Assembly (NCBI GenBank): GCA_903913865.1
Contig: CAIWMU010000043.1
Span: 1 to 33,645, forward strand
DNA length: 33,645 bases
Reading direction: 5' to 3'
Origin: an uncultured Verrucomicrobia subdivision 3 bacterium
Lineage (GTDB): Bacteria; Verrucomicrobiota; Verrucomicrobiia; Limisphaerales; UBA8199
Shown here: positions 3,471 through 25,548 of the stretch, piece after piece
Position numbering within the stretch: position 1 is the first letter of the stretch
Layout: every line of letters starts with the position of its first letter
Program-made: the position numbers and the translations under genes
The notes under the pieces: generated by a model
Told to the model about the DNA's origin: nothing
The model's input: the letters and a program-made list of their open reading frames with translations, nothing else
The model's database searches: none

Positions 3471-6400
3471 TCAACCGATTAACGCCAGCTCAAATTCCAG
3501 CCGGGCACCCCTGGTGATCGTCAATTTCTCAGCGAAGGTCACTTCTACCCTTGTTCCCTTCTGCGCAAAACCAGCCCCGATCTTCTTCGACCCCAATCTC
3601 GCATTGAGGGTGGCCACTTTGCTGTTGGCTGGAACATCGACGGTGACGGTGACCAGCTGCAACCTGCCATGCTTGATCTCGATGGAATGAGACTGCCGGG
3701 CAACCGACCGGTGCTGGCCGTAGGTGCCCCAGCCTTCAGCGCAGGTAAAGGCGGCCTTGAATTCCTCCGGAGTCAGCCGGGGTGAGAATCCGATCCGCCC
3801 CGAGGGGCCGTGATATTCGAAGCCGGACGCTGCGATAAACACTCCATAGCTGGCCATGCTGCGGACATAATGGTCGCCACACTCGATCTCGTTCCACGGG
3901 TTCCGCCGGGATGCGTGATACCGGTCATGGACGGCACGGGTGACCGCCATCCCCTCCGTGATCATCCCTTCCCACAGCATGTGCCCTGCTGCCTGATATT
4001 CAAAGCCGTTCATGCACTCGTTGAAATAGCCTGCCGCCCAATCAGGACCCTTCCCCTTTGCCTGGTCGTAATCCCAATCGGCACGGGGAAAGGAGCACAT
4101 CAACAACCCGGCCTCACCGGGCATCGCATACCACCGCCCTGCTTTATAGGCTTTCCTGTAGGGGCCAACATCAGGTGTGAAATTATACGTCCAGAGAGAG
4201 CGGAGCGCGGCCCTTGTTTCCTTCTCCGGCAGGACGCGTGGCAGACCCACTTGAAACGCCCAACTCTGCCCCATGACCTGATCAATCTCGCAGCCTGTGC
4301 CCGAATTGATGGAGTCCAGATGCCCCTGGTCAACCTTGTTCATGAAGTAGTCGTTTTCAAACAACCTGGAAACGAGATTGGTCTGGCCGGCTTCAAAAAT
4401 CTGGCGACATCTGGCTGCAAAGTCGCGGTCCCCGACCTCAATCGCCATCTCCTCGGCAGCGAGCAAGGCTGCCAGATAAAGACTGCTCAACCAGGCGACA
4501 GGCCCATACCAGTCCGTGTCGAGGGTGTTGTGCTGGTTGCTGTCAATCAAGCCGTCCCCGTCAGCATCCTTGGTGATCAGCCATTCGGTCGCTTTCTTGA
4601 ATCTGGGCCAGTTGTTTTTCAGAAAGGTGTCATCGGCAGTCATCTGGTGTTCCCGGAGGGCACGCAGGATCGCGCCCGCCTGGGCATCGATCGCCGGAAT
4701 ATTGTTGAACTCCCCACGAAAATGGATCGCCCCGTCCTGCTGGAGTCCGAGGCCGAAATCGACCTTCTCCCTCATCATTCGCTCCAATTCCGGAAACAAA
4801 CGGGCCATGGCATGGGCATAGTGCCACACGTGCCCGCATGTTCCCTCACAGCACCCAACACCCTCCCAGCTGTAGAAACGCCCATTGCCAAACCTGTGGC
4901 ATGTGGATGTCGCCAGAATGGATGTGTTCAGGAATGTGCGATCCAGAAACCAGTATGGAAGCGATGAGTCATACCATGTGTCATGCCATAGCCTGGTCTG
5001 GGAGGCCAGTTGATCGAAATTCGTGGCCAGATAGGATGCCACCGAGATGGCAGACTTGAACCTGGCTCCGTAGAACCTCCCGGGCGGCAGGCGGTTCATC
5101 TTCAGGTTCGCCATGCACCAGGTCACTGCAAAAGTGACTTTGACCGACTTTCCCGAACCCAGCTTAAACCGGTGGGCCAATGACCCGAGCAACTTCTGAC
5201 CAAACTGCATTGTTGCAGAATCGGTGGTGAGGGCGGAAGTTGAGAAAATTCCTCCGGGCACACCATTTGTTGGGAGACATGGATTTCCAATGTCTCCGGA
5301 CTGGGGGTTCAGGAGGGCCAGCCCCATGGAACCAAAGTCCTCCTCGCTGGCCAGTGGACCCACCGGATGGCGGGGACGGTCACTAAAAACGATGTCATCC
5401 ACGCTGATGTTGCCCCAATCGGATGTCTGGTCATCCACAATCACCAGTTGGCCGGTCTTGCCCATCCACTGCCGCACATCCCAGCTCATGGGCTCGAGAT
5501 GATTATTGGCCGCACCTGTGGCCGAGATGACGACGACCTCATCGATAAGAAGATTCATACAGGTGCGGCCCTTGTGATTGCCGCCCCCGATAAGGAAGGT
5601 GATGTAGTTGCGCTCGATCGTGAACGGACGACCAGTAAGCCGGCCAACAGCATCATCCTTTTCCCTGACCTCACGTCCGGGTGCTGATGCATGACTGTTC
5701 ACGAGACGCTTCCCCGCCGCCCCCACATCCCCCTGGTATTCGGGTATCCGGGCCACCTCAATCGGGCCATTTCCGAACGCCGTCCCCGTCACAGCCCAGT
5801 TTCCGTATGTTTCGCTCTCGAAGTCCTCGAAGACGATATTCGGGCGCTCACTCGGGGTTCCCGGGGGCAAATCCTCCGCCGTGCATTCGAGGAAGAGGAA
5901 GGCGGGATCACGAACGATACGATTCCGGCGGATGCCATCACGCTTCTGGCCGCTGTAAAGACAGACTGCGTTTTCAATCCACCCGGCCAATTCCCCTTCC
6001 ACGTGGGTGGAACCGGTGTTCCTGATTGTGAATTCAAGAATCGTTGCCGGAAGGGATGAATCCTCGACGCTCAGGGGAATGAAGGGTGAGAACGCTTCCA
6101 GCCCCACAGTTACCGGGCAGTCGGGATCAGCATATTCGACGTAGCCGATGGGGTATTCCCCGGTGAATGTGACACTTTTCCAATGATTCGCGTCCATCGC
6201 CCTCTCTTGTGCCTTCCCCTCGCACATCAATCGCAGGGCGAAGCCCTGATCGAGCGGGGAGGAGGCCTTCATTGGCTTGGCATAGTGCTCGGCGTCGGTG
6301 TTGAGCTTCCGGTTGAAGATGTCCCAGTGCCACAGTTTCCCATCCCCGCCGAGATAAAGCTGTCCGGCACATATCCCTCCGACCGGCATGCCGATGCTCT

Positions 6401-6665
6401 CCAGTTCCCTGCCTTTATAGCGTGTCCGTTCACCACGGGCTGTGAGGGACTTAACCCACTCGGGGGAAAGCTTCTTGTCAGCCGGAACCAGTTTCTCGAA
6501 GTCGGATCGGCTGAAGGGGCCGGCCATCGATGAAGTCCACGGCTCGAATGCCACCGCAGCAACCCCGAGGCCGATTTGCCTCAGAAAATCACGCCGACCA
6601 TAGGATGGCCCGGCACAGCCACAGTTGCCGCTGCCACAGTTCGTATTACCCGGATTCTCTTTCAT
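3471..6665 (-). CDS. Tat-exported GH116-like glycoside hydrolase with an inserted binding module
   Basis: This protein has 1064 residues. A Cys/Gly-rich start is followed by a twin-arginine signal (GRRDFLRQIGLGVAA, about 23-37), suggesting folded export. An N-terminal beta-domain (about 80-275 and 433-530) resembles the GBA2/GH116 N-terminal region, including GMPVGGICAGQLYLGGDG. Within it, about 276-432 is an extra module starting FEDFESETYGNWAVTGTAFG and ending WGNISVDDIVFSDRP, like the module found in bacterial GH32 levanase-type enzymes. The alpha/alpha barrel (about 560-960) has CCEGTCGHVWHYAHAMARLF, with Glu607 as candidate nucleophile, and LDTDWYGPVAWLSSLYLAAL, with Asp716 or Asp718 as candidate acid/base, by analogy with the Glu and Asp pair of GH116 enzymes. 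GH116 members cleave beta-glucosides or beta-xylosides, but the substrate here cannot be told. The start ATG at 6663-6665 has no Shine-Dalgarno sequence. Confidence 0.9.
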   Translation of the reverse strand: MKENPGNTNCGSGNCGCAGPSYGRRDFLRQIGLGVAAVAFEPWTSSMAGPFSRSDFEKLVPADKKLSPEWVKSLTARGERTRYKGRELESIGMPVGGICAGQLYLGGDGKLWHWDIFNRKLNTDAEHYAKPMKASSPLDQGFALRLMCEGKAQERAMDANHWKSVTFTGEYPIGYVEYADPDCPVTVGLEAFSPFIPLSVEDSSLPATILEFTIRNTGSTHVEGELAGWIENAVCLYSGQKRDGIRRNRIVRDPAFLFLECTAEDLPPGTPSERPNIVFEDFESETYGNWAVTGTAFGNGPIEVARIPEYQGDVGAAGKRLVNSHASAPGREVREKDDAVGRLTGRPFTIERNYITFLIGGGNHKGRTCMNLLIDEVVVISATGAANNHLEPMSWDVRQWMGKTGQLVIVDDQTSDWGNISVDDIVFSDRPRHPVGPLASEEDFGSMGLALLNPQSGDIGNPCLPTNGVPGGIFSTSALTTDSATMQFGQKLLGSLAHRFKLGSGKSVKVTFAVTWCMANLKMNRLPPGRFYGARFKSAISVASYLATNFDQLASQTRLWHDTWYDSSLPYWFLDRTFLNTSILATSTCHRFGNGRFYSWEGVGCCEGTCGHVWHYAHAMARLFPELERMMREKVDFGLGLQQDGAIHFRGEFNNIPAIDAQAGAILRALREHQMTADDTFLKNNWPRFKKATEWLITKDADGDGLIDSNQHNTLDTDWYGPVAWLSSLYLAALLAAEEMAIEVGDRDFAARCRQIFEAGQTNLVSRLFENDYFMNKVDQGHLDSINSGTGCEIDQVMGQSWAFQVGLPRVLPEKETRAALRSLWTYNFTPDVGPYRKAYKAGRWYAMPGEAGLLMCSFPRADWDYDQAKGKGPDWAAGYFNECMNGFEYQAAGHMLWEGMITEGMAVTRAVHDRYHASRRNPWNEIECGDHYVRSMASYGVFIAASGFEYHGPSGRIGFSPRLTPEEFKAAFTCAEGWGTYGQHRSVARQSHSIEIKHGRLQLVTVTVDVPANSKVATLNARLGSKKIGAGFAQKGTRVEVTFAEKLTITRGARLEFELALIG

Positions 6666-6851: not shown

Positions 6852-7667
6852 TTACTGGTCCCCCGCCTGGAGCTGGGGATCCCAATACTTGCTATTCTTG
6901 AGGGATGCCGCGGTGGGCACAACGGCAGGTGAGACGGGGGGATTGATGTCACGATCCCGCCTGATTTCGCTGTGGCCATCGTTGAAACTAACAACTCCGA
7001 TCCCTCCGTGCCTATACACATCGACCCCTTCCTTGTAGTCATTGGCCCCCATGCCGGCGAGGGGCCAGAACACATTCAAACACCAGTCTCCCCCGCCCCG
7101 CTTCGGACTGCAGTCGGCCACGAGGAGATTGTCGGATGGCCGCCGGATGCTGGACCGTTTGAAGCCGGGGGCTGTCTTTATTGTGAAGCTTCCAACGCGA
7201 ATCTGGTCCGGACCTCCCAAACCGAGGAACCAGGCGTTATAGCCATATCCCAATCCCTTTCCATTGAACGCCCACTGCCAGCTGACGCCGTTGTCAGTCC
7301 GAGGTCCCTTGAGAGTCGGGCAGTGGAAAACATTGGTCGGGGCATCCTTCATGTTCGATGTGATATAGTAGGCCCAAAAGTTGCCGTTGGGATCACCTGC
7401 AGGGTTGATGTCCGCAGGGAAAACATCGTTGTTTTCGTCGGTGTAATATTGAAAGAAAAGGGATACCTGCCGGAGGTTGCTCAGGCATGCGGTCCGGTTG
7501 GCCTTTTCCTTGGCCCTGCTCAGCGCGGGCAGCAACATCGAAGCGAGAATTGCGATGATCGCAATCACAACCAGCAACTCTATCAGCGTGAACCCAAATG
7601 GCCTGCCGGAGTTGCGCCCGCCGCGCGGCGAGCCACCAGTATTTGCGAACGAAAATGTCTTCTTCAT
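6852..7667 (-). CDS. Type II secretion-type pseudopilin with H-X9-DG motif (DUF1559-like)
   Basis: This 271-residue protein has a long charged leader ending in Gly25, then [20 protein letters not shown]. This is the classic prepilin site: cleavage after Gly, Phe at +1 and Glu at +5. It continues into [20 protein letters not shown]. Near the C-terminus, [19 protein letters not shown] gives the H-X9-DG signature of the large DUF1559/pseudopilin family of PVC bacteria. Such proteins are processed by a prepilin peptidase and are thought to form short periplasmic pseudopili. No peptidase or secretion ATPase is nearby, so the machinery would come from elsewhere in the genome. These genomes carry many copies, often beside large secreted enzymes, as here between the GH116-like gene and the LamG protein gene. 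Confidence 0.93.
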
Positions 7668-7791: not shown

Positions 7792-10700
7792 CTACTTCAG
7801 GTGGATGCGGAAGAACCGCGCCCCTGCACCGGCACTGACCGTTGCGCGGTTTCCATCGACGCCCGGGACCGCAGTCCACGGACCGGTGATCTGACTTGCA
7901 CTTTCCAGCACCGAGCCGGGGGTTGAGGCAGGCCAGGACAGGTTCAAGTCACTCCCTGAACGACTCATTGAGATGTTCAGCCCAACCATTGCCGCATAGT
8001 GTGCGTTGACCTCACCGGACGTGAGTGCCTTCGAATAAAAGGCCACGTTGTCAATCCCGCCAACCCAGGGGCTGGAGAGGGTGACTGGAAGGCCGTTGCC
8101 GATCTGTGTCGTGACACCCTCATTCGTCCCCGGTCCACCGTTCACGGATGTGATCTTTGCGTCATCCCAATAGACAGCGGCCGTGTTCGTGCCGGCGACG
8201 ACATCAAACACCGCGACCAGGTGGTGCCAGTTTGTGCCGGGATCCGGTATCGCCGAGAACGTGGTTCCCGCCGAAGTGATGATCCCCATCAGCCCCTTGT
8301 GTTGAATCATGCGCAGCGCCCATTTTGTGCCATTCCCATCCCTGCAGGCCAGCACATACGGGTCACCCACCGTCAGCGAATCGGAGGCCCAATCCGCGCG
8401 GACCCAGGCTTCCACAGATCCGACCCCATTGGTCATCTGGAATGAATCAACAGACCCAAGGCTGACATAACTGCCCTGATCGAACAGGATGCCTCGATCG
8501 GATCCGCCACCCAACCCGGGTTCGAACGTGACAGCCGTGATGTTTCCGGAGCCCTGTGCGCCGTTGTGGCCACCAATGACATCCGAGAAGTCATCCGAAT
8601 CAAACGGATAGAAGGCCAGGACTCCGGCCTGGGACTGTATGGTCCGTTGGAGACGGAGTGAATCGGGCGAAGCCACGGTGACCAGCGCATCCGCCGTGTT
8701 GGTGGTGCCCAGAGTATTTATCGCCCTCACGTGGTAGCGCCCCGCGTCGCCCGGGGCGAGAGCCGGGAGTGTGAGTGTTGCCCCATTCGCACCGGAGATA
8801 GCGGCGCCATTCTTGAACCACTGCAGCGAGAGGCCGGCACCCGAGATGGAGGCGGACAGGCTGACCGGTTCACCCGGGAATCCGACGACAGACCTGGGTG
8901 ACGAGAGGACCTGGGGAGTCGATCCGGCACTGAAGGCATCGTAATGAGCCGTGATTTGGGCCGGCGAGAGCGCCGCGCCATAAAGTGCGAATTCGTCAAA
9001 TGCCCCCAGCCAACCTTCGCGGGGATAGCTTCCAAAACCAGGAAAGGGATAGGTGCTGTCACTGGCGCCGATTTGTGTCACGACACCGGAACCCGCTCCG
9101 AGTGCGATGGATCTCACGACGGGAACATTATCCCAATACACGGTTAACGTCCCGGCATCAAACACAACGGCCAGATGGTGCCAGAAGGTTCCGGGAGCGG
9201 GGATCGGCACCAACGCCGGTGCTGAACCGTTCCAGTAGATCAGCTGGGATTTGTCCTGGGAGAGATGGATGCTCCAACGCACAGTCGGCTCGCCGCTCGA
9301 CCCGCACCGCATCATGCACGGATTGACAGCGATGGGTGCCCAGGGCTCCTTGCCATCGTTGGAAGGACTCCAGTCGGCCCTGACCCAGGTCTCGACCGTG
9401 CCGCTTCCGCTGGGGAATTCAAAATCAGGGACGGCCCCGAGTGACGCCAGCCCCGTCCCGTTCAGCACAAGCGAAAGATTTGCACCGCCCGCCAGGCCGT
9501 TGTTGGCGAAGGAACAATTTGTGACGCTGCCATGGTTCACGCCCACGCTGTCAGCCGCGTTGCCGAGATCGAAGGTGTACTCTGAGAGCAGCGAACTCTC
9601 GGAACGGATCGCGGTTTGATAGCGTGTGATGCTCCCCGGCAGCGTTCCGATCACGAATGCAGCCGGCGTGCTTGTGACCACATTGGCAGGATTGGCAACC
9701 ACAACGGTATAGCTCCCGGCGTCAGCAGCGGTCACCCCTGAAATCGAATAGGATGAATTGGTTTCTCCCGCCAGTGCGCTGGCCCCTTTGTACCACTGGT
9801 AAGTGATCGGAAGCGCGGCATTGTTCGTAACCCCCACAGACAACGAGTAGGGTGCCCCCGGCAGCAACTCTGCGGAAGCGGGACCCGGCTGCCTCGTGAT
9901 CGCGACCGGGAAGGCTTGCACGGTCAGGGACACCACGGAACTCGTGACAGAGGAACCGCCTGCGGTGACGACAACACTGTAGTTGCCCGCGTCCGCCAAT
10001 GTGACAGGGGAGTGTGAGAGGGTTCCGGCCGTTGCACCGGAAACAGGTGAGGCATCCTTGAACCATTGGTAGGCAGCTTCGGTACCGCCACCCACGACGC
10101 TGAGCGTTGAACTCGATCCCAGGCTATTGGTCAGGCTCACCGGCTGCACCGCGATATAGGCAGGAATGGGGGTGTTGTCTGTCACCTGAACGTGATCAAC
10201 ATGGCCATAATAGCTGCCGCCACCCACCGAAGCGGGACCGGCAAGCAGCAAAATCACCAGTGGATTCCCCTCATCAGCTGCCTGGGCGGTGTAGCTCAGG
10301 CTGACAGACCGGATCTCACGGTTTGCAATCGGGCCAACCAGCAGATTGCTGTAGGTTGTCGCGGGGGTCGTGCTGGCTTCGCTCACCAGGGCGATCTGGC
10401 ACTGATACGGGTCGTTGGGTCCGCCATAAACATCCGCGGTCACAAAATAGGTGTGATTGGCCTGCATGACACCCAGGCCCTGGGCCTGGGCTCCCACATT
10501 GGCTGCGGTATCGGTGACCAAACGAAGAGCGCGTGAACCATTTGCAGAACCCGCAGCAGCAGTCCACTCTCCATTGGGTGGATTGGCAGCCACAGCGCTC
10601 GATCCTTCAAAACTGACCCCAACGGTAAGGCTCGTCCATCCGCTCGGCTGATAAAGACCACCAATGGCGTTGAGCAACAGTGCGTCCGTTGACTCGAAAC

Positions 10701-11610
10701 TTCCATTCACGAAACTGAAGGGGGAGACTGACAATCTGGCCACCGAACTCGTAACGGATCCTCCGCCATTCGCCACGACAACGGTGTAGTCACCGGCGTT
10801 TGGCACCGCCAGCGGGGAGATGGACAGGGTGGCGTTTGTCTCTCCGGCCAGCACGCCGGAACCCTTATACCATTGATAAGTCAGATCGCCGCTTCCGCCA
10901 GCGGTCACGCCGGTGGAGAAGCTCAATCCCGCAGCACTCGCCCCCCCGGTGGGCTGGGCGGTAATGTAGGGAGCCACAGGGACGTTGTCGGAGAGTTGAA
11001 CGTTGTCAACGTGGCCATAGTAGTTTCCCCCGCCCACACTCACCGGGCCGGCCTTTAGCAATACGGTCAGCGGAAGCCCTTCATCGGCAGCCTGGGCGGT
11101 GTAACTCAGATTCACGGGAACCTTGGACCCATTCCCGATCGGCCCGACATCCAGCACCGAATATTCCGATGCGGGCGTCACGCTGGGCTCGTTGACAAAA
11201 CCGATCCGGCAACGGTACGGCGTCACCGGGCCGCCAAAAACGTCTGCGGTAAGATAGTAGGTATGGCCACTTTGCATGGTTCCAACAACCTGGGCTTCGG
11301 CACCGACATTCGCAGAACCGTCTGTCACCAGCCTGAGCGCCCGGGACCCGGTGGCGGAGCCGGGTGCGGGAGTCCACTCCCCGTTGGGCGGGTTCCCCGC
11401 CACAGCAGAGGAGGCCTCCCAGGCAGCACCGACTGTGAGGTTGACCCAGTCCGAGGGTTGATACAGCCCCCCGATGGCGTTTAAAATCAGTGCGCTTGTG
11501 TTCTCGAAGCTTCCGTTCGTCAGCGAAACGGATGCTTGCGCTCCTGTTGTCATGGCAACGACCGCCAGGGCGGTGCTGCGAATTATGGCATTTATGGCTT
11601 TCAGCTTCAT
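7792..11610 (-). CDS. Large secreted modular protein: two NGSFE jelly rolls, four Ig-like, two LamG domains
   Basis: This 1272-residue protein has a signal peptide (about 1-26, ending TTGAQA). Domains in order: NGSFE module 1 (28-208), Ig-like (213-297), NGSFE module 2 (299-478), two Ig-like domains (484-655, with YQWFKD and YQWYKG cores and DAGxYxVVV ends), LamG 1 (662-892, with FWHHLAVVFDAGTLTVYWDN), a further Ig-like domain (898-981, LQWFKNGAAISG), LamG 2 (985-1208, LAFYPFDSD and NWHHLVAVFD), and a C-terminal tail (1210-1272) ending ARFFRIHLK. No catalytic motif is visible, so it is likely a binding or adhesion protein on the surface or outside the cell. The two NGSFE copies are closely alike, indicating internal duplication. 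The start ATG 11608-11610 has no Shine-Dalgarno sequence. It is divergent from the gene at 12017, whose product carries the same module. Confidence 0.92.
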   Translation of the reverse strand: MKLKAINAIIRSTALAVVAMTTGAQASVSLTNGSFENTSALILNAIGGLYQPSDWVNLTVGAAWEASSAVAGNPPNGEWTPAPGSATGSRALRLVTDGSANVGAEAQVVGTMQSGHTYYLTADVFGGPVTPYRCRIGFVNEPSVTPASEYSVLDVGPIGNGSKVPVNLSYTAQAADEGLPLTVLLKAGPVSVGGGNYYGHVDNVQLSDNVPVAPYITAQPTGGASAAGLSFSTGVTAGGSGDLTYQWYKGSGVLAGETNATLSISPLAVPNAGDYTVVVANGGGSVTSSVARLSVSPFSFVNGSFESTDALLLNAIGGLYQPSGWTSLTVGVSFEGSSAVAANPPNGEWTAAAGSANGSRALRLVTDTAANVGAQAQGLGVMQANHTYFVTADVYGGPNDPYQCQIALVSEASTTPATTYSNLLVGPIANREIRSVSLSYTAQAADEGNPLVILLLAGPASVGGGSYYGHVDHVQVTDNTPIPAYIAVQPVSLTNSLGSSSTLSVVGGGTEAAYQWFKDASPVSGATAGTLSHSPVTLADAGNYSVVVTAGGSSVTSSVVSLTVQAFPVAITRQPGPASAELLPGAPYSLSVGVTNNAALPITYQWYKGASALAGETNSSYSISGVTAADAGSYTVVVANPANVVTSTPAAFVIGTLPGSITRYQTAIRSESSLLSEYTFDLGNAADSVGVNHGSVTNCSFANNGLAGGANLSLVLNGTGLASLGAVPDFEFPSGSGTVETWVRADWSPSNDGKEPWAPIAVNPCMMRCGSSGEPTVRWSIHLSQDKSQLIYWNGSAPALVPIPAPGTFWHHLAVVFDAGTLTVYWDNVPVVRSIALGAGSGVVTQIGASDSTYPFPGFGSYPREGWLGAFDEFALYGAALSPAQITAHYDAFSAGSTPQVLSSPRSVVGFPGEPVSLSASISGAGLSLQWFKNGAAISGANGATLTLPALAPGDAGRYHVRAINTLGTTNTADALVTVASPDSLRLQRTIQSQAGVLAFYPFDSDDFSDVIGGHNGAQGSGNITAVTFEPGLGGGSDRGILFDQGSYVSLGSVDSFQMTNGVGSVEAWVRADWASDSLTVGDPYVLACRDGNGTKWALRMIQHKGLMGIITSAGTTFSAIPDPGTNWHHLVAVFDVVAGTNTAAVYWDDAKITSVNGGPGTNEGVTTQIGNGLPVTLSSPWVGGIDNVAFYSKALTSGEVNAHYAAMVGLNISMSRSGSDLNLSWPASTPGSVLESASQITGPWTAVPGVDGNRATVSAGAGARFFRIHLK

Positions 11611-12016
11611 TTCAAGGTTGCGGATGGTTGGGTTGTTGTTTGGCTTCCGTGACTGTGGAAAACATCAAATTCCATTTGGTTGTCTCAATATGTCGTGGCA
11701 TTCCAGAGTCGCGAAAAGCCCTTGCGACCCGATTTGTTTGTTTTCATGTTCAAGAATTACCCATGAAAAGTTAACTTCACAATAGACAAAACTGTTTACG
11801 AACGGGGCACAGGACAGGCTGGTTTCAAGGCCGGATTTCATCAAATTCCGGCCAAATTCAGGGGAATCAGCCCAACAGGCAGGAAGGGGGGTAAACAGTT
11901 TTGGTGAGCGACATTTGAGGCCGGAAAATCCACATTGTTGAAAAACTGAAGGGTCCCAGGCTGATCGGCCAACCGGCTGAGACGTGCGTGTTCACCGACC
12001 CGAACGGGGCTGGAAA
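11611..12016. other. Divergent intergenic region between the two NGSFE-protein genes
   Basis: This 406-bp region must carry the promoters of both giant genes, which run away from it. Open frames here are short and do not look coding. The clear structure is a nested inverted repeat at 11787-11903, listed separately. A further GGCCGGAAAA occurs at about 11920-11929, echoing the GGCCGGA arm of the central hairpin. I could not pick out reliable -10/-35 hexamers. Confidence 0.6.
11787..11903. promoter_or_regulatory. Nested inverted repeat: candidate double operator or MITE-like relic
   Basis: CAAAACTGTTTAC (11787-11799) is repeated exactly as its reverse complement GTAAACAGTTTTG (11891-11903), a perfect 13-bp inverted repeat with a 91-bp spacer. 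Almost concentric with it is a hairpin at 11829-11853: GGCCGGATTT, then CATC, then AAATTCCGGCC, with one bulged base. Two paired sites between divergent genes are the usual layout for a regulator acting on both promoters, possibly by looping. A small non-autonomous element with 13-bp ends would look similar, but I see no target-site duplication. The structure itself is certain and its role is inferred. Confidence 0.55.
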
Positions 12017-15000
12017 ATGAAGAAACAATTTCAAACAATCACATACATGGCGTGCCTTGCCGCCTTGCTGGCGATCAGGGCACAGGGTGCCATACTGCTG
12101 ACCAACGGAAGCTTCGAAACGGTTGGATCGCTCTACAGCCCGGCTCTGGGGGGGATTTATGCCGCTTCGGCGTGGACGAACCTGTCGGGCCTGACAATAC
12201 AGGCATCGAGTGTGCCAGGCGGCGCAGAGGGGACGCCTCCCACAACCACGGGATCCCGCATTTTGCGTCTGGTGAATGACGAGGGATCGTCCAATCCGGC
12301 CAATGTCGGCCGCATCGCCCAGAAGCTTGGCACAATGGTGACCGGTGAGACCTACACCTTCAATGCCGATGCCTTCGGCGGGTTGCCAATCGGAGTCAAT
12401 TGGGGTGCAACAGCGAAATTCGTCGATCAGGGTGTGGCAAGTCCCCCCTCGACATACGCCGCACAAACCGTCAATGGGGTGGGCGCAGGTGTGCTCATCA
12501 GCAACGCGTTCAACCTGAGTTATACAGCCAGGCCAGTTGACGACGGCAAGCCATTGTGGATCTGGCTGGAGGCGGTCGCAGTGGGTGCCGGGCAGGCCTC
12601 CCGTGGCGGAATTGACAACGCCCGGGTCACAGTCATCACATCCAGCTCTGCAAAGGAACTCCTCGACTTTTCGCTCGGAGCGATGGGCACCGGAAGAATT
12701 GATGGCACAAACATCAGCGTCACAGTTCCCTACGGCACCATCGTGACAAACCTCGCCCCAACCTACACTGCCTCAACATCTGCATCCGGCAGGCCCGCCT
12801 CAGGCACTCCCCTGGACTTCACCTCGCCAAAGGTTTACGTCATCACCGCACAGGACGGATCCACCCGGTCATACATGGCCACGGTTGCAGTCGCGCCACC
12901 CAGCCCGGCCAGGGATATTCTGACATTCAGTTTCCCCTCGCTGGGCTCCTGCGCGATTGTGGGAACCAACATCCTCAAAGCGGTTCCAGGAGGAACTTCC
13001 CTCAGCAACCTTGCCCCGGTCTTTACGGTTTCCCCCTTCGCGTCCGCCAGTCCCCCTTCCGGCACCCCCCGCAACTTCAACACTCCGCAAATCTACACGG
13101 TCACAGCCCAGGATGGTTCCACCCGCACCTATCAGGCCTCGATACTGTTCCTTTCAACAAACCTCACTATTGTAAACAATGGCACATCCCTGAGCGTGGA
13201 CAACGGGCTCGTGCGGCTCGACCTGGGACGGACCAACGCCGGTTACACCAGGAAGTTCTCCGCCATGAATGCATCCGCACAGTGGGAGGAGGTTTGCTCC
13301 TCGTTCATCCCCGATTTCACGGCAAACCCCTCAGGCAACCCCCTGTTCAACGGGTCTGCCACCCCAAGGCGTTACCGGGTTCATGAGATGGCCACAAACA
13401 GCTTTGCCGTCCATTCACCGTCACCCTCCAGCGTGGTGGTCGAGATCACCGGCTCTTCCCTCGGGGCACAGTTCACGGAGCGCATTTATCTCGAGACGGG
13501 CAGGAAGTTCTTTCATGTTGCCAACACCATTGTGCTTCCAACCAACTCTCTCGACTACTGCATGTCCTCCTTCACCTTTAACTTTGCCGGCACTCCGGAG
13601 TTCGTCCACTCCCCAACGGCCAAAAAGGAGGAGTTCAGGTGGTCACCCGCCACCCCGATCAGCGGACAGGTTGTGGGCGACGTCGCTTTTCATTCCCCGG
13701 CACTGATTCTTCAACAGGGGGGACTGTTCGCCGCCATGGTTCCCGATCTGGACAGCATTAACAGGGACAAGGTTCTTTCGCCCGATGCACGCCGCACGAG
13801 GTATGTGGGCGCCACGATTTTCGACAGCCCTGAGGTCACAGGCAACTACTCCATGCCCACCGCCCTGGACTTGAACATCAATTCCGGTCTTACGCGGCAA
13901 CCGGTGATGTCCTACGGGATGATGGATTACATCGTCGGCCATGAGATTCGACACTACAGGCTGAATGATGCCAGCATGATCAGAACGCTCGCCACAAACA
14001 CAATCAGCTATGGCTTTGATCTCTTTCTGGGCGCACAGGAGCCGTCGAACCGCGGCTACCAGCAGATCAGCCGGTATCTTTGGGAGAGATACGGCCAGCC
14101 TCTGCTTCGAAGCCGTCCCCACCTCGCCCTGCCCTCCGAGGAATATGTGAAGCTTGTTTACGGCATTGTTTCACAACCGATGTCCCCGTCTGTTCAGGCG
14201 CCGGTCCCCGGATACGCTGACCACGGTGTGTTTCTCGACTTCACCATGAGCAATCAACCCGTATGCAGCATGGTTGCCCCGCTCGGTGTGCTGGGCTTTG
14301 GGGATGCCCTCTGGAATTTCGAGTTCTGGAATCCTGTCCGGGACGCCTCGGGCATGTATTACTGGGGGCAGAAGCTGGGAAAACCGGATCTCAGGGACCG
14401 GGCGCGCGGCATCATCAACCTGGCCCTCCTTGCACCAAGAGAGACAAACGGGATGTTCTGCCTCACCTATCTGGCCCAGTCCGGAACCTGGCTGCGGGGC
14501 TGCGTCAGTGCTCCGGCCAGGTCGCTCTTTTCAAAAAACAACGACACCTGGGATGTGCCGGCGATGAGCAAAACCGCCGCCCATCTGGTTGAGTATTACA
14601 AGCAGTGCGAGCAGGATCCACGCATCCTCGCCTGGCTGGCTCCCTACGCAAACTGGCTGGCAACCAGCATCAACCCGGATGGCCGCATCCCCTCCTACTT
14701 CACCCCGGCGATGCTCCCCAACGATCCTTTCACAGTCAACGCACAGTCCGCCGCCTCGATGTGGTTTCTTTCGGAGTTCTACTCGATTACAAACAATCCC
14801 TCCTACCTTGCCGGCTCAATCAGGATCGCCAGTTACCTGATTTCCAACGTGATCCCCAACCAGAGATGGATGGATTTGGAACCGTGGTTCTCGGACGGCC
14901 AGAACCCGCTCGACCTGACTGTGGATCCTGTCCAGGGCCTTCCGCTGAAAGGCAACCTTTCCACCATCTGGGCGGCGGAGGGATTCGCGTCACTCTATCG

Positions 15001-17056
15001 CAACACCGCCTCGGACCTGTATCTGCGAACGGGCGAACAGGTGGTTGATTACCTGGCTTTCTGGCAGAACGGATGGAACTTCCATTACATTTACGCCGCG
15101 TTCCCGTTTGGCGGTGTGACCAGTGACAATGTGGACACGGCGGCATGCCTGGACGCACGGCAGGCTGAAACCGTCCGCTCCTTCTTCTGGTATGGGCAGC
15201 AACTCGGCAGGCAGGATCTGCTGGAGCGTGCCGTGGCCGCAGCGCGATCCGGCGCGGTGCTGATCAACCACCCGCTTCACATTGCCAACGGCATCTACTC
15301 TCATCCCAACATCTATGGAACGGGTCTCGGCCCGGAAAACATCAATCACGGCGGGTTTAATCAGTCCGCCATGCGCACACACCCCTCCTGGGGAGAGTGT
15401 TCCGCTATTTTCACCGGTCTGGGCACCGCCGATTATCTCATGAGCGGATGCTATGTGAATGCCACCAACCTGCTCGCGGTCGGAATGAACGGGCTCTGGT
15501 GCACGAACATCTCCGCCGGCAGCAATTCTCTCGCGTTTACAGTCACCAGCCAGATCGCAGCACAGCCATTTCCCTGGGGTTCCCCCTTCAGAACCTCCAT
15601 CAGGATCGTCGGGGTCGGGACCAACACGAGCTGCAGAATACTCATCAACAATTTGCCGACCGTGAATCTGACGAACTATCCTGGTGGAATCATTCCCATC
15701 AAAGTTTCCACCAATGGAGCCGTATCCCTCGCCTTCAGGGAGGTTCTGGTCACCCCGTATTTGGTCTCCTTCCCCGCAAGTGGAACATCCTCCTGCTCGG
15801 TCGTGCTGAGTGATGTCCCCCCGCCCGACGGCGCGACGGTCTCGATGGCCCAAACCGGCGGCGATACCAGCATCTCCACCACTCCCCCGGCCAGCAGCTT
15901 GCTGTTCACCCCGGCGAACTGGAACATCCCACAGACAATAACCTTCACCGCACCCCGTGGAACCAATTGGCAGAACCGCTCATCAACCTACCTGCTGCAA
16001 TCACCGGGCTACAGCAACACCACCGTTACGGTCACCGATGTTGTTCACATCCCCCCCCGCATCGACATCAGCAACGGCAGCTTCGAAATCGTTGACCAGC
16101 AATACTCCACCTCGATAGGGGGACTCTATCACCCGACCGGCTGGAGCAACCTTTCAGGGCTGGATTATCAAGCCTCAAGCATGCTGGCTGGGTCGGAAGT
16201 GACCCTCGCGAGTGGTGCGACCGGCAACCGGATTCTGCGCCTCGCAAATGACTTGTTCGACCCTTACTATGTGGGCCGGATTGCTCAGGAGATCGGCCCC
16301 ATGATCGCAGGGGAAACCTACACATTTCAGGCAGACCTCCTGGGTGGGGCCGGGGGTGGAATTGACAACCTCTGGGGTGCCAGTGCGGCTTTTGTGAATG
16401 AAATCGCCACAAACCCGGCCGTGGTCTATGCATCGCAGACGGTTTCCAACATTCTCTCCGGCCAGATGCTCGCAAACGGGTTCAATTTCTCCTACACCGC
16501 CCTGCCCGCGGACAACAACAAGCCGCTCGTGATCCTCCTACAGGCGCGCCCCCTGACAAACGCGGCATCCTCCCTGCGCGGCGGGATCGACAACGCACGT
16601 TTCAGTATCACACCCCCTGCCTCCTCAATCACGGTGCTGGCAAACCCGACAAATGCCGGTTATGCCTCCGGATCCGGCTCCTTCACACCGGGAACCGCAA
16701 TAGAAATCAGTGCGACGGCGTCCAACTACTGGAGATTCACAGGCTGGAACGATGGCAGCACAAACACCCCCCGCACAGTGACCGTGCCGGCCACCAATAC
16801 GACCTACACGGCCTCATTTTCCCGAATCCCCCCACAACCGGTGATTGCCACCTTCACAGGGCCGGGTGGCGGGGGTGTGAGCATCGGAGGCACCACAGAC
16901 ATCCCCGGGTATGTGGTCACGGAACGAACCCTTGCGCTGGCGCCGCCGATCCACTGGCAACCGGTTCAAACAAATGCCGTGCCCGGTGGGGCCTACAGCT
17001 TCCTCATCCCCCAGGGAACAAGTTCAGCAGCTTTTTTCAGACTGCGCGGCTCCTGA
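12017..17056 (+). CDS. Giant secreted protein with alpha/alpha-barrel-like core and two NGSFE modules
   Basis: I place the start at ATG 12017, not the in-frame GTG-type start 33 bp upstream, because MKKQFQTITYMACLAALLAI then makes a clean signal peptide (about 1-25). Domains in the ~1679-residue product: NGSFE module (25-207); two tandem ~85-residue DUF5018-like repeats (212-378) each with V(I/T)TAQDGSTR(S/T)Y; a beta-rich region (385-640); an alpha-helical region (about 680-1145) with WAAEGFASLY and FWYGQQLGRQDLLERAVAAA, resembling alpha/alpha-barrel polysaccharide lyases or hydrolases; a Calx-beta-like domain (about 1245-1345); a second NGSFE module (1350-1533); an InlB-B-like repeat (1536-1605, FTGWNDGS); and a tail ending AAFFRLRGS. 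I suspect an extracellular carbohydrate-active enzyme but can assign neither catalytic residues nor family. It is transcribed away from the other NGSFE gene. Confidence 0.88.
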   Translation: MKKQFQTITYMACLAALLAIRAQGAILLTNGSFETVGSLYSPALGGIYAASAWTNLSGLTIQASSVPGGAEGTPPTTTGSRILRLVNDEGSSNPANVGRIAQKLGTMVTGETYTFNADAFGGLPIGVNWGATAKFVDQGVASPPSTYAAQTVNGVGAGVLISNAFNLSYTARPVDDGKPLWIWLEAVAVGAGQASRGGIDNARVTVITSSSAKELLDFSLGAMGTGRIDGTNISVTVPYGTIVTNLAPTYTASTSASGRPASGTPLDFTSPKVYVITAQDGSTRSYMATVAVAPPSPARDILTFSFPSLGSCAIVGTNILKAVPGGTSLSNLAPVFTVSPFASASPPSGTPRNFNTPQIYTVTAQDGSTRTYQASILFLSTNLTIVNNGTSLSVDNGLVRLDLGRTNAGYTRKFSAMNASAQWEEVCSSFIPDFTANPSGNPLFNGSATPRRYRVHEMATNSFAVHSPSPSSVVVEITGSSLGAQFTERIYLETGRKFFHVANTIVLPTNSLDYCMSSFTFNFAGTPEFVHSPTAKKEEFRWSPATPISGQVVGDVAFHSPALILQQGGLFAAMVPDLDSINRDKVLSPDARRTRYVGATIFDSPEVTGNYSMPTALDLNINSGLTRQPVMSYGMMDYIVGHEIRHYRLNDASMIRTLATNTISYGFDLFLGAQEPSNRGYQQISRYLWERYGQPLLRSRPHLALPSEEYVKLVYGIVSQPMSPSVQAPVPGYADHGVFLDFTMSNQPVCSMVAPLGVLGFGDALWNFEFWNPVRDASGMYYWGQKLGKPDLRDRARGIINLALLAPRETNGMFCLTYLAQSGTWLRGCVSAPARSLFSKNNDTWDVPAMSKTAAHLVEYYKQCEQDPRILAWLAPYANWLATSINPDGRIPSYFTPAMLPNDPFTVNAQSAASMWFLSEFYSITNNPSYLAGSIRIASYLISNVIPNQRWMDLEPWFSDGQNPLDLTVDPVQGLPLKGNLSTIWAAEGFASLYRNTASDLYLRTGEQVVDYLAFWQNGWNFHYIYAAFPFGGVTSDNVDTAACLDARQAETVRSFFWYGQQLGRQDLLERAVAAARSGAVLINHPLHIANGIYSHPNIYGTGLGPENINHGGFNQSAMRTHPSWGECSAIFTGLGTADYLMSGCYVNATNLLAVGMNGLWCTNISAGSNSLAFTVTSQIAAQPFPWGSPFRTSIRIVGVGTNTSCRILINNLPTVNLTNYPGGIIPIKVSTNGAVSLAFREVLVTPYLVSFPASGTSSCSVVLSDVPPPDGATVSMAQTGGDTSISTTPPASSLLFTPANWNIPQTITFTAPRGTNWQNRSSTYLLQSPGYSNTTVTVTDVVHIPPRIDISNGSFEIVDQQYSTSIGGLYHPTGWSNLSGLDYQASSMLAGSEVTLASGATGNRILRLANDLFDPYYVGRIAQEIGPMIAGETYTFQADLLGGAGGGIDNLWGASAAFVNEIATNPAVVYASQTVSNILSGQMLANGFNFSYTALPADNNKPLVILLQARPLTNAASSLRGGIDNARFSITPPASSITVLANPTNAGYASGSGSFTPGTAIEISATASNYWRFTGWNDGSTNTPRTVTVPATNTTYTASFSRIPPQPVIATFTGPGGGGVSIGGTTDIPGYVVTERTLALAPPIHWQPVQTNAVPGGAYSFLIPQGTSSAAFFRLRGS

Positions 17057-17332: not shown

Positions 17333-17965
17333 TCATAGTTTGCGGTATTTCGCGACCGCCTGACTGCGTGACCTGACGTGCAGCTTCTGGTAGATCCGCG
17401 CTATGTGGGTGTGGACTGTTGCATATCCTATGTTCAACTTGTCGGCAACCTCCTTGTAAAGGTAGCCCTGCGTCAGGTAATCCAGCACCTCAATCTCCCG
17501 GGGTGAAAGCTCCTCGCCCGGGACTTCAGGCGGGGACTTTGCGGTGCGCCTGAATGACTGGACAACCTTGCGGGCGATGTTGTGCGTCATGGGTGCCCCG
17601 CCTTTCTGGACATCTTTGACAGCCGCTATCAATTCGCTGGCCCGTGCCGGTTTCAGGAGGTAACCGCTTGCCCCGGCTTCAAGCGAATGAAAAATCGCCT
17701 CTGTGTCGTCGTGCACCGTGAGCATGATCAACATGGTGGAAGGGGAGGCCACGGCCATTTGCCGCACAAATTCCACCCCGTCCATGCCGGGCAGATTTAT
17801 GTCCACCAGGATCACATCCGGATAATCACCCCCCAGCATCCTCAAAGCCTCCTCGGCACTCCCGAACTCCCCAACGCAGGAGATGCCACGCTGGGTTTTC
17901 AGGATGCTCGCGAGATTCCGCCGCACCGCAGCATCATCTTCAACGATCGCGACCTTGATTCTCAT
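17333..17965 (-). CDS. NarL/LuxR-type response regulator
   Basis: The product has 210 residues from ATG 17963-17965 (MRIKVAIVEDDAAVRRNLAS). A GTG 15 bp further upstream (17978-17980) is an alternative, and neither has a clear ribosome site. The receiver domain (about 1-118) has the acidic pair EDD, phosphoacceptor Asp in VILVDINLPGMDGVEF, Thr in IMLTVHD and Lys in GYLLKPARASEL. The LuxR-type helix-turn-helix (about 148-205) reads LSPREIEVLDYLTQGYLYKE, then a recognition helix with YATVHTHIARIYQKL. It acts as a DNA-binding regulator phosphorylated by the sensor kinase encoded directly upstream. The target genes are not known. The nearby secreted-protein genes are plausible targets by position only. 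Confidence 0.95.
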   Translation of the reverse strand: MRIKVAIVEDDAAVRRNLASILKTQRGISCVGEFGSAEEALRMLGGDYPDVILVDINLPGMDGVEFVRQMAVASPSTMLIMLTVHDDTEAIFHSLEAGASGYLLKPARASELIAAVKDVQKGGAPMTHNIARKVVQSFRRTAKSPPEVPGEELSPREIEVLDYLTQGYLYKEVADKLNIGYATVHTHIARIYQKLHVRSRSQAVAKYRKL

Positions 17966-18073
17966 TTCAGGACTTTGCACTGATCCAATTTTGGGGGAAA
18001 GTGCGGCCTCCCACCAGTAAACAGAAATGTCTAGCCCGCCACCGGAAATCTGAACCGTTGTCCGTTGGCGTTT

Positions 18074-21000
18074 TCATGATCGCAACGGGAGAATGAACCG
18101 GTTCACCGTTCCCTGACCGAGGCGGCTCTCCTGCTCGAACCTGCCCCCAACCGACCGCATCCGCTGCTCCATGTTTTTGAGTCCATGCCCCCGTCCGGAT
18201 GCCGAGGCCGACTTGTCGGCCTGCTGCACCTGCCCGGGGTCAAAGCCCCGGCCGTTATCCTCGACCTCCAGGACGATCGAGTCCTTGCCACATTTCAGCC
18301 TCAGCCACACCTCGGTGGCCGCCCCGTGCTTTGCCACATTGTTCAACGCCTCCTTCACGGAGAGGTAGAGGTGGTGCCGGGTCGCTGAATGCATCGGCGC
18401 ATCCGGCAACTCCTCCGGAAAATCCAACCGGCAACGCAACCCGGCCGCCCTGAGGAATTCCTGGGCCGAACGCGTGATAAAATTCAGGGAGGGTTCAAGC
18501 GAGTTGTTCTTGGGATGCAGAGCCCACACAATTTCATCGGTCGCCCGCGCCAGGCTGCGTGCCTTGGTGAAAATGGAATCCAGATGCCCCCGCGCCGCCT
18601 GCGGCTGATCCATCTGGGTTTGAGCCAGTTCACTCAGCAGGGCGATCTCTGTCAGGCTTGCCCCCAAGTCGTCGTGGATATCCTGCGCGATGCGGGCCCG
18701 CTCCTGTTCAACTGCATGCATGCGCTCAAGGCCCTCAATCCGGGCCCGATGCCGGCGTCGGAGAAACCATGTCACCAATAATCCAACGCTGACCGCCAGA
18801 GCACATGCAAGGCACAGCTTGAACCACCATGTCTGCCAGAAAAAGGGCTGCACGCTGAGCCGGATCCCCGGGGCGGGAACACTCCAGACCCCATTCCGGT
18901 TCGCTGCCATGACCTGAAATTGATACTGACCAGGAGGCAACCCTGTGTAATGCACCATCCTCCTCAACCCTGTCTCGACCCAGCTCCGGTCAAATCCCTC
19001 CAGCTTGACACGGAACTTTACAAAGTCCGGAGCCAGCCAGCTCAGAGCCGTGTATCGAAGCTCCACACGATGTGACCCCGGCCGGATTTCCGCCGGAAGC
19101 AACGAGCCTTGCCGGATCCGGACGGGCTGATCGTCCACCACCATCTCATCCACAACCACCGATGGCGGGGTCGGGTCGCTTTTCAAATCCCCGGGGTTGA
19201 CCCAGGTCAATCCCTTCGCAGTCGGCCACCACAACCGGCCATCAACACCCCGAAAACCTGCAGGCTGGGATCCCCCGGCACATTCCAACGAGGGCAACCC
19301 GTCCCCCATGCCAAACACCGCGGAATGGACGGTGGCACTGCGACCCTCAAAATAATCGTTCAACTCGCTCTTTGAGACCCGGAACACCCCGTGCGGGGAA
19401 CTGCACCAGAGGCACCCTGCCCCGTCATCAAGCATCTGGCACACCACATTGTCGTGGAGCCCCTCCCGTTCGGTGCAGGTTTGCACTTTGCCATCCTTCC
19501 ACCGGCTCAACCCGCCCCCCGCCGTGCCAACCCAGACACACCGGTTGGATGAATCAACCAGAAGCGACCAGATGGTGTCGCTCCCCAGGCCAGCAGAATG
19601 AGTGTAATTCCGGTAATCCCTCCCGTTCCAATGGAACAGCCCTCTTCCTCCGGTCCCAATCCAGAGACCACCCGTCCCATCGTTCGCAAACACCCGGACG
19701 TCCATGATCAGCGGTGCTTCCGGCATCGTGAATTGCTGCGGGGCATCGCCCACCACCCGGTAAATCTGCCCTGCCGTTTCAGCTCCAATCCAGAGTCCCC
19801 ATCGATCGTCCTCAAAAGCTGCAGAGATGTGGTGCGCAGTCCCCAGTGCTTTAAATGGCTTAAGTTCCCCATCCTGGAGGTAGAACAATCCATCGTCCTG
19901 AGTCCCCGACCAAACCCGCCCCGCTGAATCAACCGTCACCGTTCGTATCCTTCGAATTTCATGTCCCTCCGCCGTCCTGACACCCTGAATCACGCCGTTT
20001 CCTACCCTGATCAATCCATTGCGTTCAGTTCCCACCCAGATACCCTCCGCCCCGCCGTCACAGATGGTTGTCACGGCTGCTCCTGATAATCCCTCCATCA
20101 GCGGCAGCACATGAAACAGTCTCCTCCTCAGACGCGTGAGCCCGCCACCCTCGCTTCCCGCCCAAATGGTTCCCTGGCTGTCCTCGAACAGGCAGGCTAC
20201 CGAGTCCGCCCCCAACCCGTTCGTCGAGGAAAATGCCTGAACCGTTCCATCTGTCATCCGGCACCACAGTCCGCTGACCTCCGTTCCAATCCAGAGGTTG
20301 CCATCCCGATCCTCGTGCGCCACCCTCGCGGAGCTGAGAACATTTGTGGGAAATCCCACCTCGCTTACCGACTTTCCCCCCTCCAGCAATCTTAATGATG
20401 AGCCTGAGCCCAACCACCACCCCCGGCGGCCCGGCACCAGAAACCGTAATTTCCCGGTTGCCACTTGAATCAGCCGTTCTGCCCCGCTGGAGGTAACCTG
20501 CTCCAAACTCCGGCTGCTTGCGGCATACACACCGCCATTTGTGCAGTGAAACAGCCTCAAGCTCCCGTCCGACGCTTCAACATTGGTCGACAGGGAGTAA
20601 CATGCACCGCCGTTCAATCTCGCGACCACTCCCGCCTCATTGGCAAGCCAGAGATCAGCCCCCTCCGATTTCAATGAGACCACCCTGGATGAACCAACGC
20701 CCCCTTCAGAATCACCCCGGGAGAATTGCCCGCCCCTCATGTATCCGAGTGTCGCCCCCGAGGCCTTGATCCAAAGCCCGCCTGAATCATCGGCACAAAG
20801 CGCTTCCACCCGGGTGCTCGCAACCCCGGGTGTGTTTTGGGGTGAAAAAGATCTGAAGTTCTGGCCGTCGAACCTGGCCAATCCGTTATCCGTCCCTATC
20901 CACAAAAAGCCATCCAGAGTTTGTGCAATCGCTGTGACAGAATTGTTGGGAAGCCCTTTCTCGATATTCCAGCTGTCAACCTGCCATGGCACAGCCTCCG

Positions 21001-21097
21001 CGCCGGATACACTCCCACGCAGAACCATCCAGAGCCCTATTAACAGGCATCGGGCTCCAGATAGCTTTGGAGCACACAGATAAATGGATGGGTTCAC
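18074..21097 (-). CDS. Sensor histidine kinase with periplasmic propeller, Y_Y_Y and HisKA_3/HATPase domains
   Basis: The frame is open to an ATG at 21217. The first 40 residues of that version are Arg/Ser-rich and unlike a protein start, so I use GTG 21095-21097, which gives a signal-like VNPSIYLCAPKLSGARCLLI ending at SGAEA. The extracellular part is a two-component-regulator propeller with repeated (L/I)WIGT and WVGT(A)GGG(L)SRW blades, followed by a Y_Y_Y domain (LEGFDRSWVETG, GLPPGQYQFQVMAANRNGVW) and one membrane helix (WWFKLCLACALAVSVGLLVTW). The cytoplasmic kinase has ARIAQDIHDDLGASLTEIAL with the phospho-His at codon 18674-18676, an N-box (ALNNVAKHG), DNGRGFDPG and GHGLKNMEQR. It should sense an outside ligand, perhaps a glycan, and phosphorylate the regulator 108 bp downstream. 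Confidence 0.93.
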   Translation of the reverse strand: MNPSIYLCAPKLSGARCLLIGLWMVLRGSVSGAEAVPWQVDSWNIEKGLPNNSVTAIAQTLDGFLWIGTDNGLARFDGQNFRSFSPQNTPGVASTRVEALCADDSGGLWIKASGATLGYMRGGQFSRGDSEGGVGSSRVVSLKSEGADLWLANEAGVVARLNGGACYSLSTNVEASDGSLRLFHCTNGGVYAASSRSLEQVTSSGAERLIQVATGKLRFLVPGRRGWWLGSGSSLRLLEGGKSVSEVGFPTNVLSSARVAHEDRDGNLWIGTEVSGLWCRMTDGTVQAFSSTNGLGADSVACLFEDSQGTIWAGSEGGGLTRLRRRLFHVLPLMEGLSGAAVTTICDGGAEGIWVGTERNGLIRVGNGVIQGVRTAEGHEIRRIRTVTVDSAGRVWSGTQDDGLFYLQDGELKPFKALGTAHHISAAFEDDRWGLWIGAETAGQIYRVVGDAPQQFTMPEAPLIMDVRVFANDGTGGLWIGTGGRGLFHWNGRDYRNYTHSAGLGSDTIWSLLVDSSNRCVWVGTAGGGLSRWKDGKVQTCTEREGLHDNVVCQMLDDGAGCLWCSSPHGVFRVSKSELNDYFEGRSATVHSAVFGMGDGLPSLECAGGSQPAGFRGVDGRLWWPTAKGLTWVNPGDLKSDPTPPSVVVDEMVVDDQPVRIRQGSLLPAEIRPGSHRVELRYTALSWLAPDFVKFRVKLEGFDRSWVETGLRRMVHYTGLPPGQYQFQVMAANRNGVWSVPAPGIRLSVQPFFWQTWWFKLCLACALAVSVGLLVTWFLRRRHRARIEGLERMHAVEQERARIAQDIHDDLGASLTEIALLSELAQTQMDQPQAARGHLDSIFTKARSLARATDEIVWALHPKNNSLEPSLNFITRSAQEFLRAAGLRCRLDFPEELPDAPMHSATRHHLYLSVKEALNNVAKHGAATEVWLRLKCGKDSIVLEVEDNGRGFDPGQVQQADKSASASGRGHGLKNMEQRMRSVGGRFEQESRLGQGTVNRFILPLRS

Positions 21098-21217
21098 TGA
21101 ATCAGTCTGGAGGAACCCCCCATCCGCCTGCAACGCCTTTTCGTCCCGCACCCGGGTCAGCGCAGGGGAGCGGGAGCGAGAGCCGGGGCGAAGCCGTTCG
21201 CCGAACGTCCAACCCAT

Positions 21218-21571
21218 CAGCCACGCTTTGCAACATCATCATGCCTCAGGCTCCTATTCCCTACAGCCTCTTCTCCATCTTTCACACATCACCCTCACCA
21301 GCCAATTGAAGATCACCAGAAGATTCTGGAAGAACCTGAATCGGTAGACCTCCACGATCAGCCTTTGCCCAACCACCTTCCATGGGACCTCCTGCACCTC
21401 AACCCCGTCTACCTCCGGCTTCCCCCATGACGCATCGTCATGCCGGCCGCAGGTCTGAACCTGCTCCGCCATACGTTTGTCAGGTTGGTCAATTTGTTCT
21501 TGAAATTCTGTCAGCCCATCGGCACCGTCCAGATATAGGGGATTCGACTGGCTGAAACCATCATCTTGAAG
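21218..21571. other. Intergenic region between the sensor kinase and the ECF sigma gene
   Basis: The kinase and sigma genes diverge, so both promoters should lie in this ~350-bp region, but no clear promoter boxes stand out. A minus-strand open frame of unusually protein-like composition runs through it and is listed separately with low confidence. The part next to the kinase is a G/C/Arg-codon-rich stretch of repetitive look that is probably non-coding. Confidence 0.35.
21254..21545 (-). other. Possible short coding remnant upstream of the sensor kinase
   Basis: A minus-strand frame ends at TAG (21254-21256) and is open upstream into the sigma gene. The portion outside the sigma gene, about 95 residues, includes MAEQVQTCGRHDDASWGKP, VDGVEVQEVPWKVVGQRLIV and a hydrophobic Trp-containing end. 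Its third codon positions are mostly G/C and the residue mix is balanced, unlike other shadow frames here. The only ATG within this portion gives about 73 residues. I cannot name a family. It may be the tail of a decayed gene, a small unknown protein, or a chance frame. No other gene occupies the interval. Confidence 0.25.
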
Positions 21572-22324: not shown

Positions 22325-22523
22325 ACCCGCCATGAGCCAGCTGCGGTGGCGACCCTCTTTCGACAATCCGATGCACCCATCGGCATCCAATCCGTCCGAT
22401 TGCCCCCATCCCCCAGCGCACGCATGCAAGGGGTTCTTCACATCCCCCGGCCTTTTGCCGCAAGGTTCCTCCCCTATTTCCTCTGTAACAAGTGAGCCAC
22501 CCAATTTGGTGTGACGAATATTG

Positions 22524-24975: not shown

Positions 24976-25057
24976 AGACCACGTCATAAACAGTTGCGCA
25001 TGGCAAGTTCCTGACATGGCGCTCTCGTGAGTCTCCCATGGTTTCGATGCGCAGAAC
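24976..25057. repeat. 82-bp direct repeat, copy 1
   Basis: The core from CATAAACAGTTGCGCATGGC onward (24985-25018) is identical over 34 bp to copy 2. Similarity continues through GTTTCGAT(G/A)CGCAGAAC with a few substitutions and single-base gaps. It begins 65 bp after the kinase stop. Confidence 0.9.
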
Positions 25058-25466: not shown

Positions 25467-25548
25467 AGACACCGCGCCATAAACAGTTGCGCATGGCAAG
25501 TTCCTGACATGCGCTTTCGTGGTCCTCCATCGTTTCGATACGCAGAAC
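25467..25548. repeat. 82-bp direct repeat, copy 2
   Basis: The 34-bp identical core lies at 25478-25511, and the match to copy 1 ends with CGCAGAAC at 25548. The copy closes the hairpin-rich segment on its right side, 491 bp after copy 1. Confidence 0.9.

Follow-up and report, generated by a model that had tools for sequence, protein, structure and literature searches.

A divergent verrucomicrobial gene pair combines shared jelly-roll modules with a LamG/Ig scaffold and a probable glycosidase core

Organisation of the locus

The window, meaning the whole stretch of 33,645 nt that was analysed, contains two divergently transcribed genes, A and B, that each encode a secreted protein with two copies of the same module, here called the NGSFE module. 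The genes, their parts and their neighbours are as follows.

1941..3182, minus strand: DUF6786 protein (E 1.5e-156), at the end of the gene run on the A side
3471..6665, minus strand: GH116-type glycosidase
6852..7667, minus strand: pseudopilin-like protein with a prepilin N-methylation motif, downstream of A
7792..11610, minus strand: gene A (secreted, 1272 aa), with two NGSFE modules, several Ig domains, two LamG domains and an FFR(I/L)-type C-terminal tail
8953..9435, minus strand: LamG domain (Laminin_G_3) of A, aa 726-886 (E 5.9e-23, matched in 2 stretches)
10174..10719, minus strand: NGSFE module A2, A 298-479
10984..11529, minus strand: NGSFE module A1, A 28-209
11611..12016, no strand: divergent spacer between A and B, 406 bp
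12017..17056, plus strand: gene B (secreted)
12092..12634, plus strand: NGSFE module B1, B 37-218
13163..15541, plus strand: enzyme-like core of B (about 790 residues), with a beta-rich N-terminal part and a helical-hairpin part
16061..16612, plus strand: NGSFE module B2, B 1360-1543
16631..16828, plus strand: Flg_new_2, a divergent InlB B-repeat domain, of B (E 3.9e-9)
17333..17980, minus strand: response regulator with receiver and LuxR-type HTH domains, beside B, a candidate regulator
18074..21217, minus strand: sensor kinase with two-component-regulator propeller, Y_Y_Y, HisKA_3 and HATPase domains

The open reading frame of B was listed from GTG 11984 (11984-17056, 1690 aa); the start is probably ATG 12017, which was preferred because translation from it yields a good signal peptide. 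Protein B is composed, in order, of module B1, DUF5018-like domains, the enzyme-like core, module B2, the InlB B-repeat-like domain and a C-terminal tail. In protein A, the second LamG domain lies nearer the C-terminus. FFR(I/L)-type tails end both proteins and also the relatives of A in loci L018 and L023. A sequence-only reading of the window had described a divergent pair with two modules in each product and with LamG and Ig as the other domains of A, and the open reading frames and domains bore this out. No TonB-dependent receptor or SusD was found among the window proteins scanned, and the locus thus differs from a polysaccharide utilisation locus of the Bacteroidota type, which is defined by its SusC/SusD pair.

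The four modules are homologous and rare

The NGSFE module is about 182 residues long. Identity was 68% between A1 and A2, 48% between B1 and B2, and 35-42% between the modules of A and those of B. BLASTP E-values for the module pairs ranged from 3e-94 to 3e-22, and the scores were 28-100 SD over those of shuffled sequences. Common to the modules were TNGSFE, GG(L/I)Y-x4-W, G(S/N)R-x-LRL-x-x-D and SYTA-x-x-x-D, and the motifs TNGSFE, GG(L/I)Y, G(S/N)R and SYTA were present as first described. These comparisons indicate that the four modules are truly homologous.

Only these four places in the 6.27-Mb assembly matched the module. A1 and A2 go back to a recent duplication within the gene (68% identity, tree support 99/98), and B2 grouped with a decayed module from another family, in genome G032 (74%, tree support 100/99). 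A profile built from the four modules, a check proposed with the sequence-only reading, matched 2 of 146 relatives, the window's own genome included, and an enlarged profile matched one genome, again the window's own, in a sample of 387 from the phylum. The module subfamily is therefore rare and patchy.

Fold and calcium-site residues of the module

Protein A as a whole matched the HpiC1-like family (PF22825) with 35.7 bits (cut-off 27, E 1.2e-8), and protein B showed no match; among single modules, two of ten matched at all, the best at 8.9e-5. The CBM_4_9 family (PF02018) scored 16.9 bits on protein A (cut-off 25.9) and gave weak matches in three of the ten modules (best 0.0086), none of which reached the gathering score. 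The AF2 model of the module (pLDDT 72, pTM 0.76) was a beta sandwich in which the first 25 residues were poorly predicted. When this model was compared with the PDB, the best matches were Stig cyclases, with Z 14.2-14.6 over 165-170 residues, and the top match (Z 14.6, rmsd 3.0, 169 residues) agreed with the HpiC1 jelly-roll fold. Next came mixed jelly rolls, including CBM4, CBM16 and CBM61, at Z of about 11-12. An unrecognised kind of module is not supported: its fold is not new, and the model places it, as a divergent member, among the calcium-dependent jelly rolls of the HpiC1 (Stig cyclase)/CBM4 superfamily. HpiC1-like domains were common in the order (27 of 97 relatives), and a literature search on PF22825 and HpiC1-like domains found nothing. 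One such domain, at L101:445-3816 (plus strand), is part of a LamG/Ig-type protein with repeated segments that by eye resemble cohesin-type domains.

In the Stig cyclase FamC1, the Ca2 site is common to beta-sandwich CBMs, the Ca1 site is peculiar to cyclases, and D214 is the catalytic residue (PMC9063808). The Glu of NGSFE, present in 10/10 modules, aligned with the Ca2 ligand E39, and the Asp of G(I/V/L)D(N/H), which reads GHVD in A, corresponded to the Ca2 ligand D216 in all nine modules that cover the position. The D214 position held G or H in all nine covering modules and D in the relatives L099 and L101; both positions were placed via these two relatives, since the FamC1 stretch in the alignment ends short of D214 and D216. 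The other Ca2 side chains (E/N near 95-98) were not kept, and the Ca1 residues N137 and E175 were not conserved, in a region where the alignment has long gaps. The Stig cyclases (HpiC1, FamC1, FilC1 and FisC) thus have in common with the modules a jelly roll over nearly the whole length and E39 and D216 of Ca2, but the modules are without D214, do not, as aligned, conserve the Ca1-site residues, have a weak or absent Pfam score and are repeated within large secreted proteins. It is extremely improbable that the modules act as enzymes in the manner of Stig cyclases: although these cyclases are their closest fold relatives, such activity is largely refuted by the missing catalytic Asp214, and the Ca1 residues, as aligned, also speak against it. 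The residues indicate that the module is a non-cyclase relative of Stig cyclases.

The module was found with partners that are unrelated to one another, namely the enzyme-like core, LamG/Ig domains, PATR repeats, a stand-alone form with a PEP-CTERM-like tail and a possible GH43-like domain. Such varied partners are also seen for CBMs. The GH43-like domain, on the module protein of L097, had a Pfam E of 0.016 and was not confirmed by PDB sequence comparison. CBM families 4, 16 and 61 have the fold class, the acidic residues of the shared calcium site and the variety of enzyme-like and surface partners in common with the module, but its match to CBM_4_9 is weak and under the cut-off, it is assigned to no CBM family, and its glycan binding is a prediction.

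A possible, if rather unlikely, alternative is that in large surface proteins the module has a structural or protein-protein docking role, like Ig/FN3 repeats; it would bind no glycan and would mediate contact between A and B or with the cell surface. This would suit the position of the modules between Ig and DUF5018-like domains, their repetition within proteins and their presence on PATR-repeat proteins and a stand-alone protein with a PEP-CTERM-like tail; both kinds are of the surface type and carry no known enzyme. However, the fold neighbours are mostly ligand-binding jelly rolls, and an enzyme-like core is among the module partners in several genomes. As judged from fold, calcium-site residues and partners, the module most likely binds carbohydrate, because two acidic residues of a CBM-type calcium site are kept and the catalytic Asp of the cyclases is absent.

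The core of B resembles toroid glycosidases

The core family is small: besides the window it has members in G639 (two copies), G640, G046, G322 and G506 and a distant one in G550; a tblastn comparison of the core with plasmids gave no match. The core alignment was rebuilt to set aside the DUF5018 matches of the first core search, which belong to a separate accessory domain. Pfam gave sub-threshold hints only, nearly all of them to (alpha/alpha)-toroid enzymes (GH127, GH76, GH88 and PL10). With an eight-sequence core profile, hmmsearch found structures of GH76 alpha-1,6-mannanases at E 0.005-0.04, the best (0.005) over about 90 residues, and Pfam GH76 scored 12.6 bits on the homologue L059 against a cut-off of 25.9. 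D964, E966, D1051, E1118, N1119 and H1122 (GTG numbering) were invariant in 8/8 core homologues. The (alpha/alpha)-toroid glycosidases, GH76 foremost and more weakly GH127, GH88 and PL10, thus have helical-hairpin segments in common with the core; however, the matches span only one or two hairpins, none is at the Pfam gathering level, and the core forms a family of its own. These matches hint that the core represents a rare family that resembles (alpha/alpha)-toroid glycosidases and lies outside the named families, and it is enzyme-like, probably a glycosidase. The alpha/alpha architecture suggested by the sequence-only reading is plausible on these grounds, but the AF2 model, made from three sequences, reached a pLDDT of 33.6 and is no proof of it.

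The core proteins of G046, G322, G506 and G550 carry no NGSFE module, and the module is therefore not essential to the enzyme. A domain of about 160 residues in the G046 core protein (L018:8331-11267, aa 71-231) was 41% identical to aa 261-428 of the GH116 protein in the window, which points to accessory-domain swapping between linked enzymes. The 1739-aa core protein at L097:3006-8222 (minus strand) begins with ~870 residues that precede the core and to which no Pfam family matched.

Binder-type, core and module genes are linked in other genomes

Inspection of neighbourhoods in other genomes, which had been proposed together with the pair, revealed A-like/core, module/module, core/module and LamG/Ig-module neighbours. 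In G046, the only core gene is preceded on the same strand, at a distance of 64 bp, by that genome's closest relative of A (E 8e-72, against 3e-31 for the next one elsewhere). That the neighbour ranks first among the relatives of A makes this case strong. Neither of the two carries an NGSFE module, so that the module, first seen as the common element of such pairs, is not obligatory. At L027 in G640, the end of an NGSFE-PATR gene is followed by an NGSFE-core gene, meeting at contig ends, and at L022 in the same genome a contig ends in the start of an NGSFE-PATR gene; the two parts may belong to one gene, judging from 84-93% identity to L024. At L026 in G639, an NGSFE-core gene follows a PATR gene, and at L097 in that genome the gene of the 1739-aa core protein overlaps an NGSFE gene by a few bases. 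L023 and L025 each have an A-like LamG/Ig gene followed by the gene of a stand-alone NGSFE protein, which in L023 has a PEP-CTERM-like tail, and at L024 an NGSFE-PATR gene lies ahead of the start of a LamG-type gene. The decayed module of G032 is divergent from a GH116 gene 75.5% identical to that of the window. At L019:9533-9871 (minus strand), a decayed NGSFE module without a normal signal peptide or second half lies by an intact GH116 gene.

The adjacent genes elsewhere are in tandem, and the only divergent cases are the window and the module remnant opposite GH116 in G032. Divergence, whose recurrence the sequence-only reading had singled out for checking, is therefore not the conserved feature. 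Single adjacencies also need care: LamG/Ig proteins were abundant in three of five genomes tested (69-118 matching places per genome), and this makes neighbours by accident more likely. A and B could then owe their common domain to local duplication or recombination, with no joint function, as might be expected where verrucomicrobial genomes are full of CAZymes and of LamG/Ig surface proteins with many paralogues, where A1 and A2 are recent duplicates and where the module family is so rare and patchy. We nevertheless consider such a neighbourhood effect improbable. In G046, the closest relative of A stands by the only core gene with no common module to recombine; in G640 and G639, module genes have core genes or further module genes as neighbours; and the A- and B-type modules are only 35-42% identical, so that any local exchange is not recent. 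The observations support a physical link between binder-type proteins, the enzyme-like core and the module that recurs in distant Verrucomicrobiota. Together with the CBM-like fold of the module, this recurrent linkage makes the idea of a binder-plus-enzyme pair well supported, but not the divergent layout as its conserved unit.

An inverted repeat in the spacer

The spacer contains two perfect copies of a 13-mer.

11787..11799, minus strand: GTAAACAGTTTTG (minus-strand reading), an operator-like half with the palindromic core AAACwGTTT
11891..11903, plus strand: second perfect copy, inverted, 104 bp away start to start

The exact 13-mer has no further copy in the genome. Shuffling the spacer produced 13-nt arms in 3 of 1000 trials, and 8 of 164 tiles of the window had arms of 12-13 nt; the case for the inverted repeat is thus suggestive only. 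The site was absent upstream of the homologous genes checked elsewhere. A genome-wide regulon with this site was rejected, as one-mismatch counts were not over control, and so were the ends of a small mobile element, as no second genomic copy and no flanking duplication were seen. A scan of the spacer found no sigma-70 promoter, a result of little weight in this phylum. Downstream of a B homologue in G639 lies a kinase gene related to the sensor kinase of the window. A shared switch for A and B is predicted as possible.

Proposed function of A and B

The explanation that we find somewhat probable as a whole is that the shared jelly-roll modules, the enzyme core of B and the LamG/Ig scaffold of A all serve one glycan. 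A and B would be secreted or surface proteins with a common divergent, calcium-stabilised jelly-roll carbohydrate-binding module, in B as two copies flanking an (alpha/alpha)-toroid enzyme core, most likely a glycosidase, and in A as two copies on a LamG/Ig scaffold for binding or adhesion. Enzyme and scaffold would most likely be held by the modules on one glycan, with B cutting it at the place where A has captured it, and the GH116 and DUF6786 proteins on the A side may process the products. The paired 13-nt sites may bring about co-regulation, and the adjoining two-component system perhaps acts on them. For A and B, glycan binding, catalysis and a common target are what we infer, and the locus looks like a small toolkit for one carbohydrate because relatives of A and B turn up together repeatedly. 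We regard as unlikely a more elaborate version, in which a new CBM family, with the Stig-cyclase fold turned to glycan binding, is the address tag on a new-family glycosidase and on a LamG/Ig scaffold, the two being co-expressed from an operator-controlled divergent promoter, with scaffold-assisted degradation and with no cellulosome-type docking.

Freshwater Verrucomicrobia have been described to encode LamG-type (pfam13385) CBM proteins beside glycoside hydrolases and sulfatases (PMC5615132), and the earlier statement that no system of this form had been described was too strong in view of that study. As in those neighbourhoods, a Laminin_G_3 protein lies by enzyme genes; here, binder and enzyme also have a second, rarer module in common and flank one spacer. 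What is new is this particular module subfamily, together with the core family and the way the two are repeatedly linked. If the proposal is true, two protein families would receive testable assignments, as a CBM-like module with the Stig-cyclase fold and as a probable new family of (alpha/alpha)-toroid glycosidases. It would also suggest a way in which Verrucomicrobiota, whose LamG/Ig proteins of the surface type number in the dozens, might match certain binding scaffolds with certain enzymes.

Other features of the window

PADLOC gave a marginal match only. The stretch 21566-24911 (plus strand) encodes an ECF-like sigma factor and, behind it, a Ser/Thr protein kinase with TPR repeats. BspA-type leucine-rich repeats (LRR_5, E 1.4e-242) make up most of a 1182-aa protein at 26895-30443 (minus strand), and a further surface-type protein with LamG, Ig, He_PIG and Rib domains is encoded at 30404-33643 (minus strand), its open reading frame overlapping the next by 40 bases. 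Identical 13-mers, ATAAACAGTTGCG, occur at 24986-24998 and 25479-25491, 493 bp apart, which hints at a local duplication.
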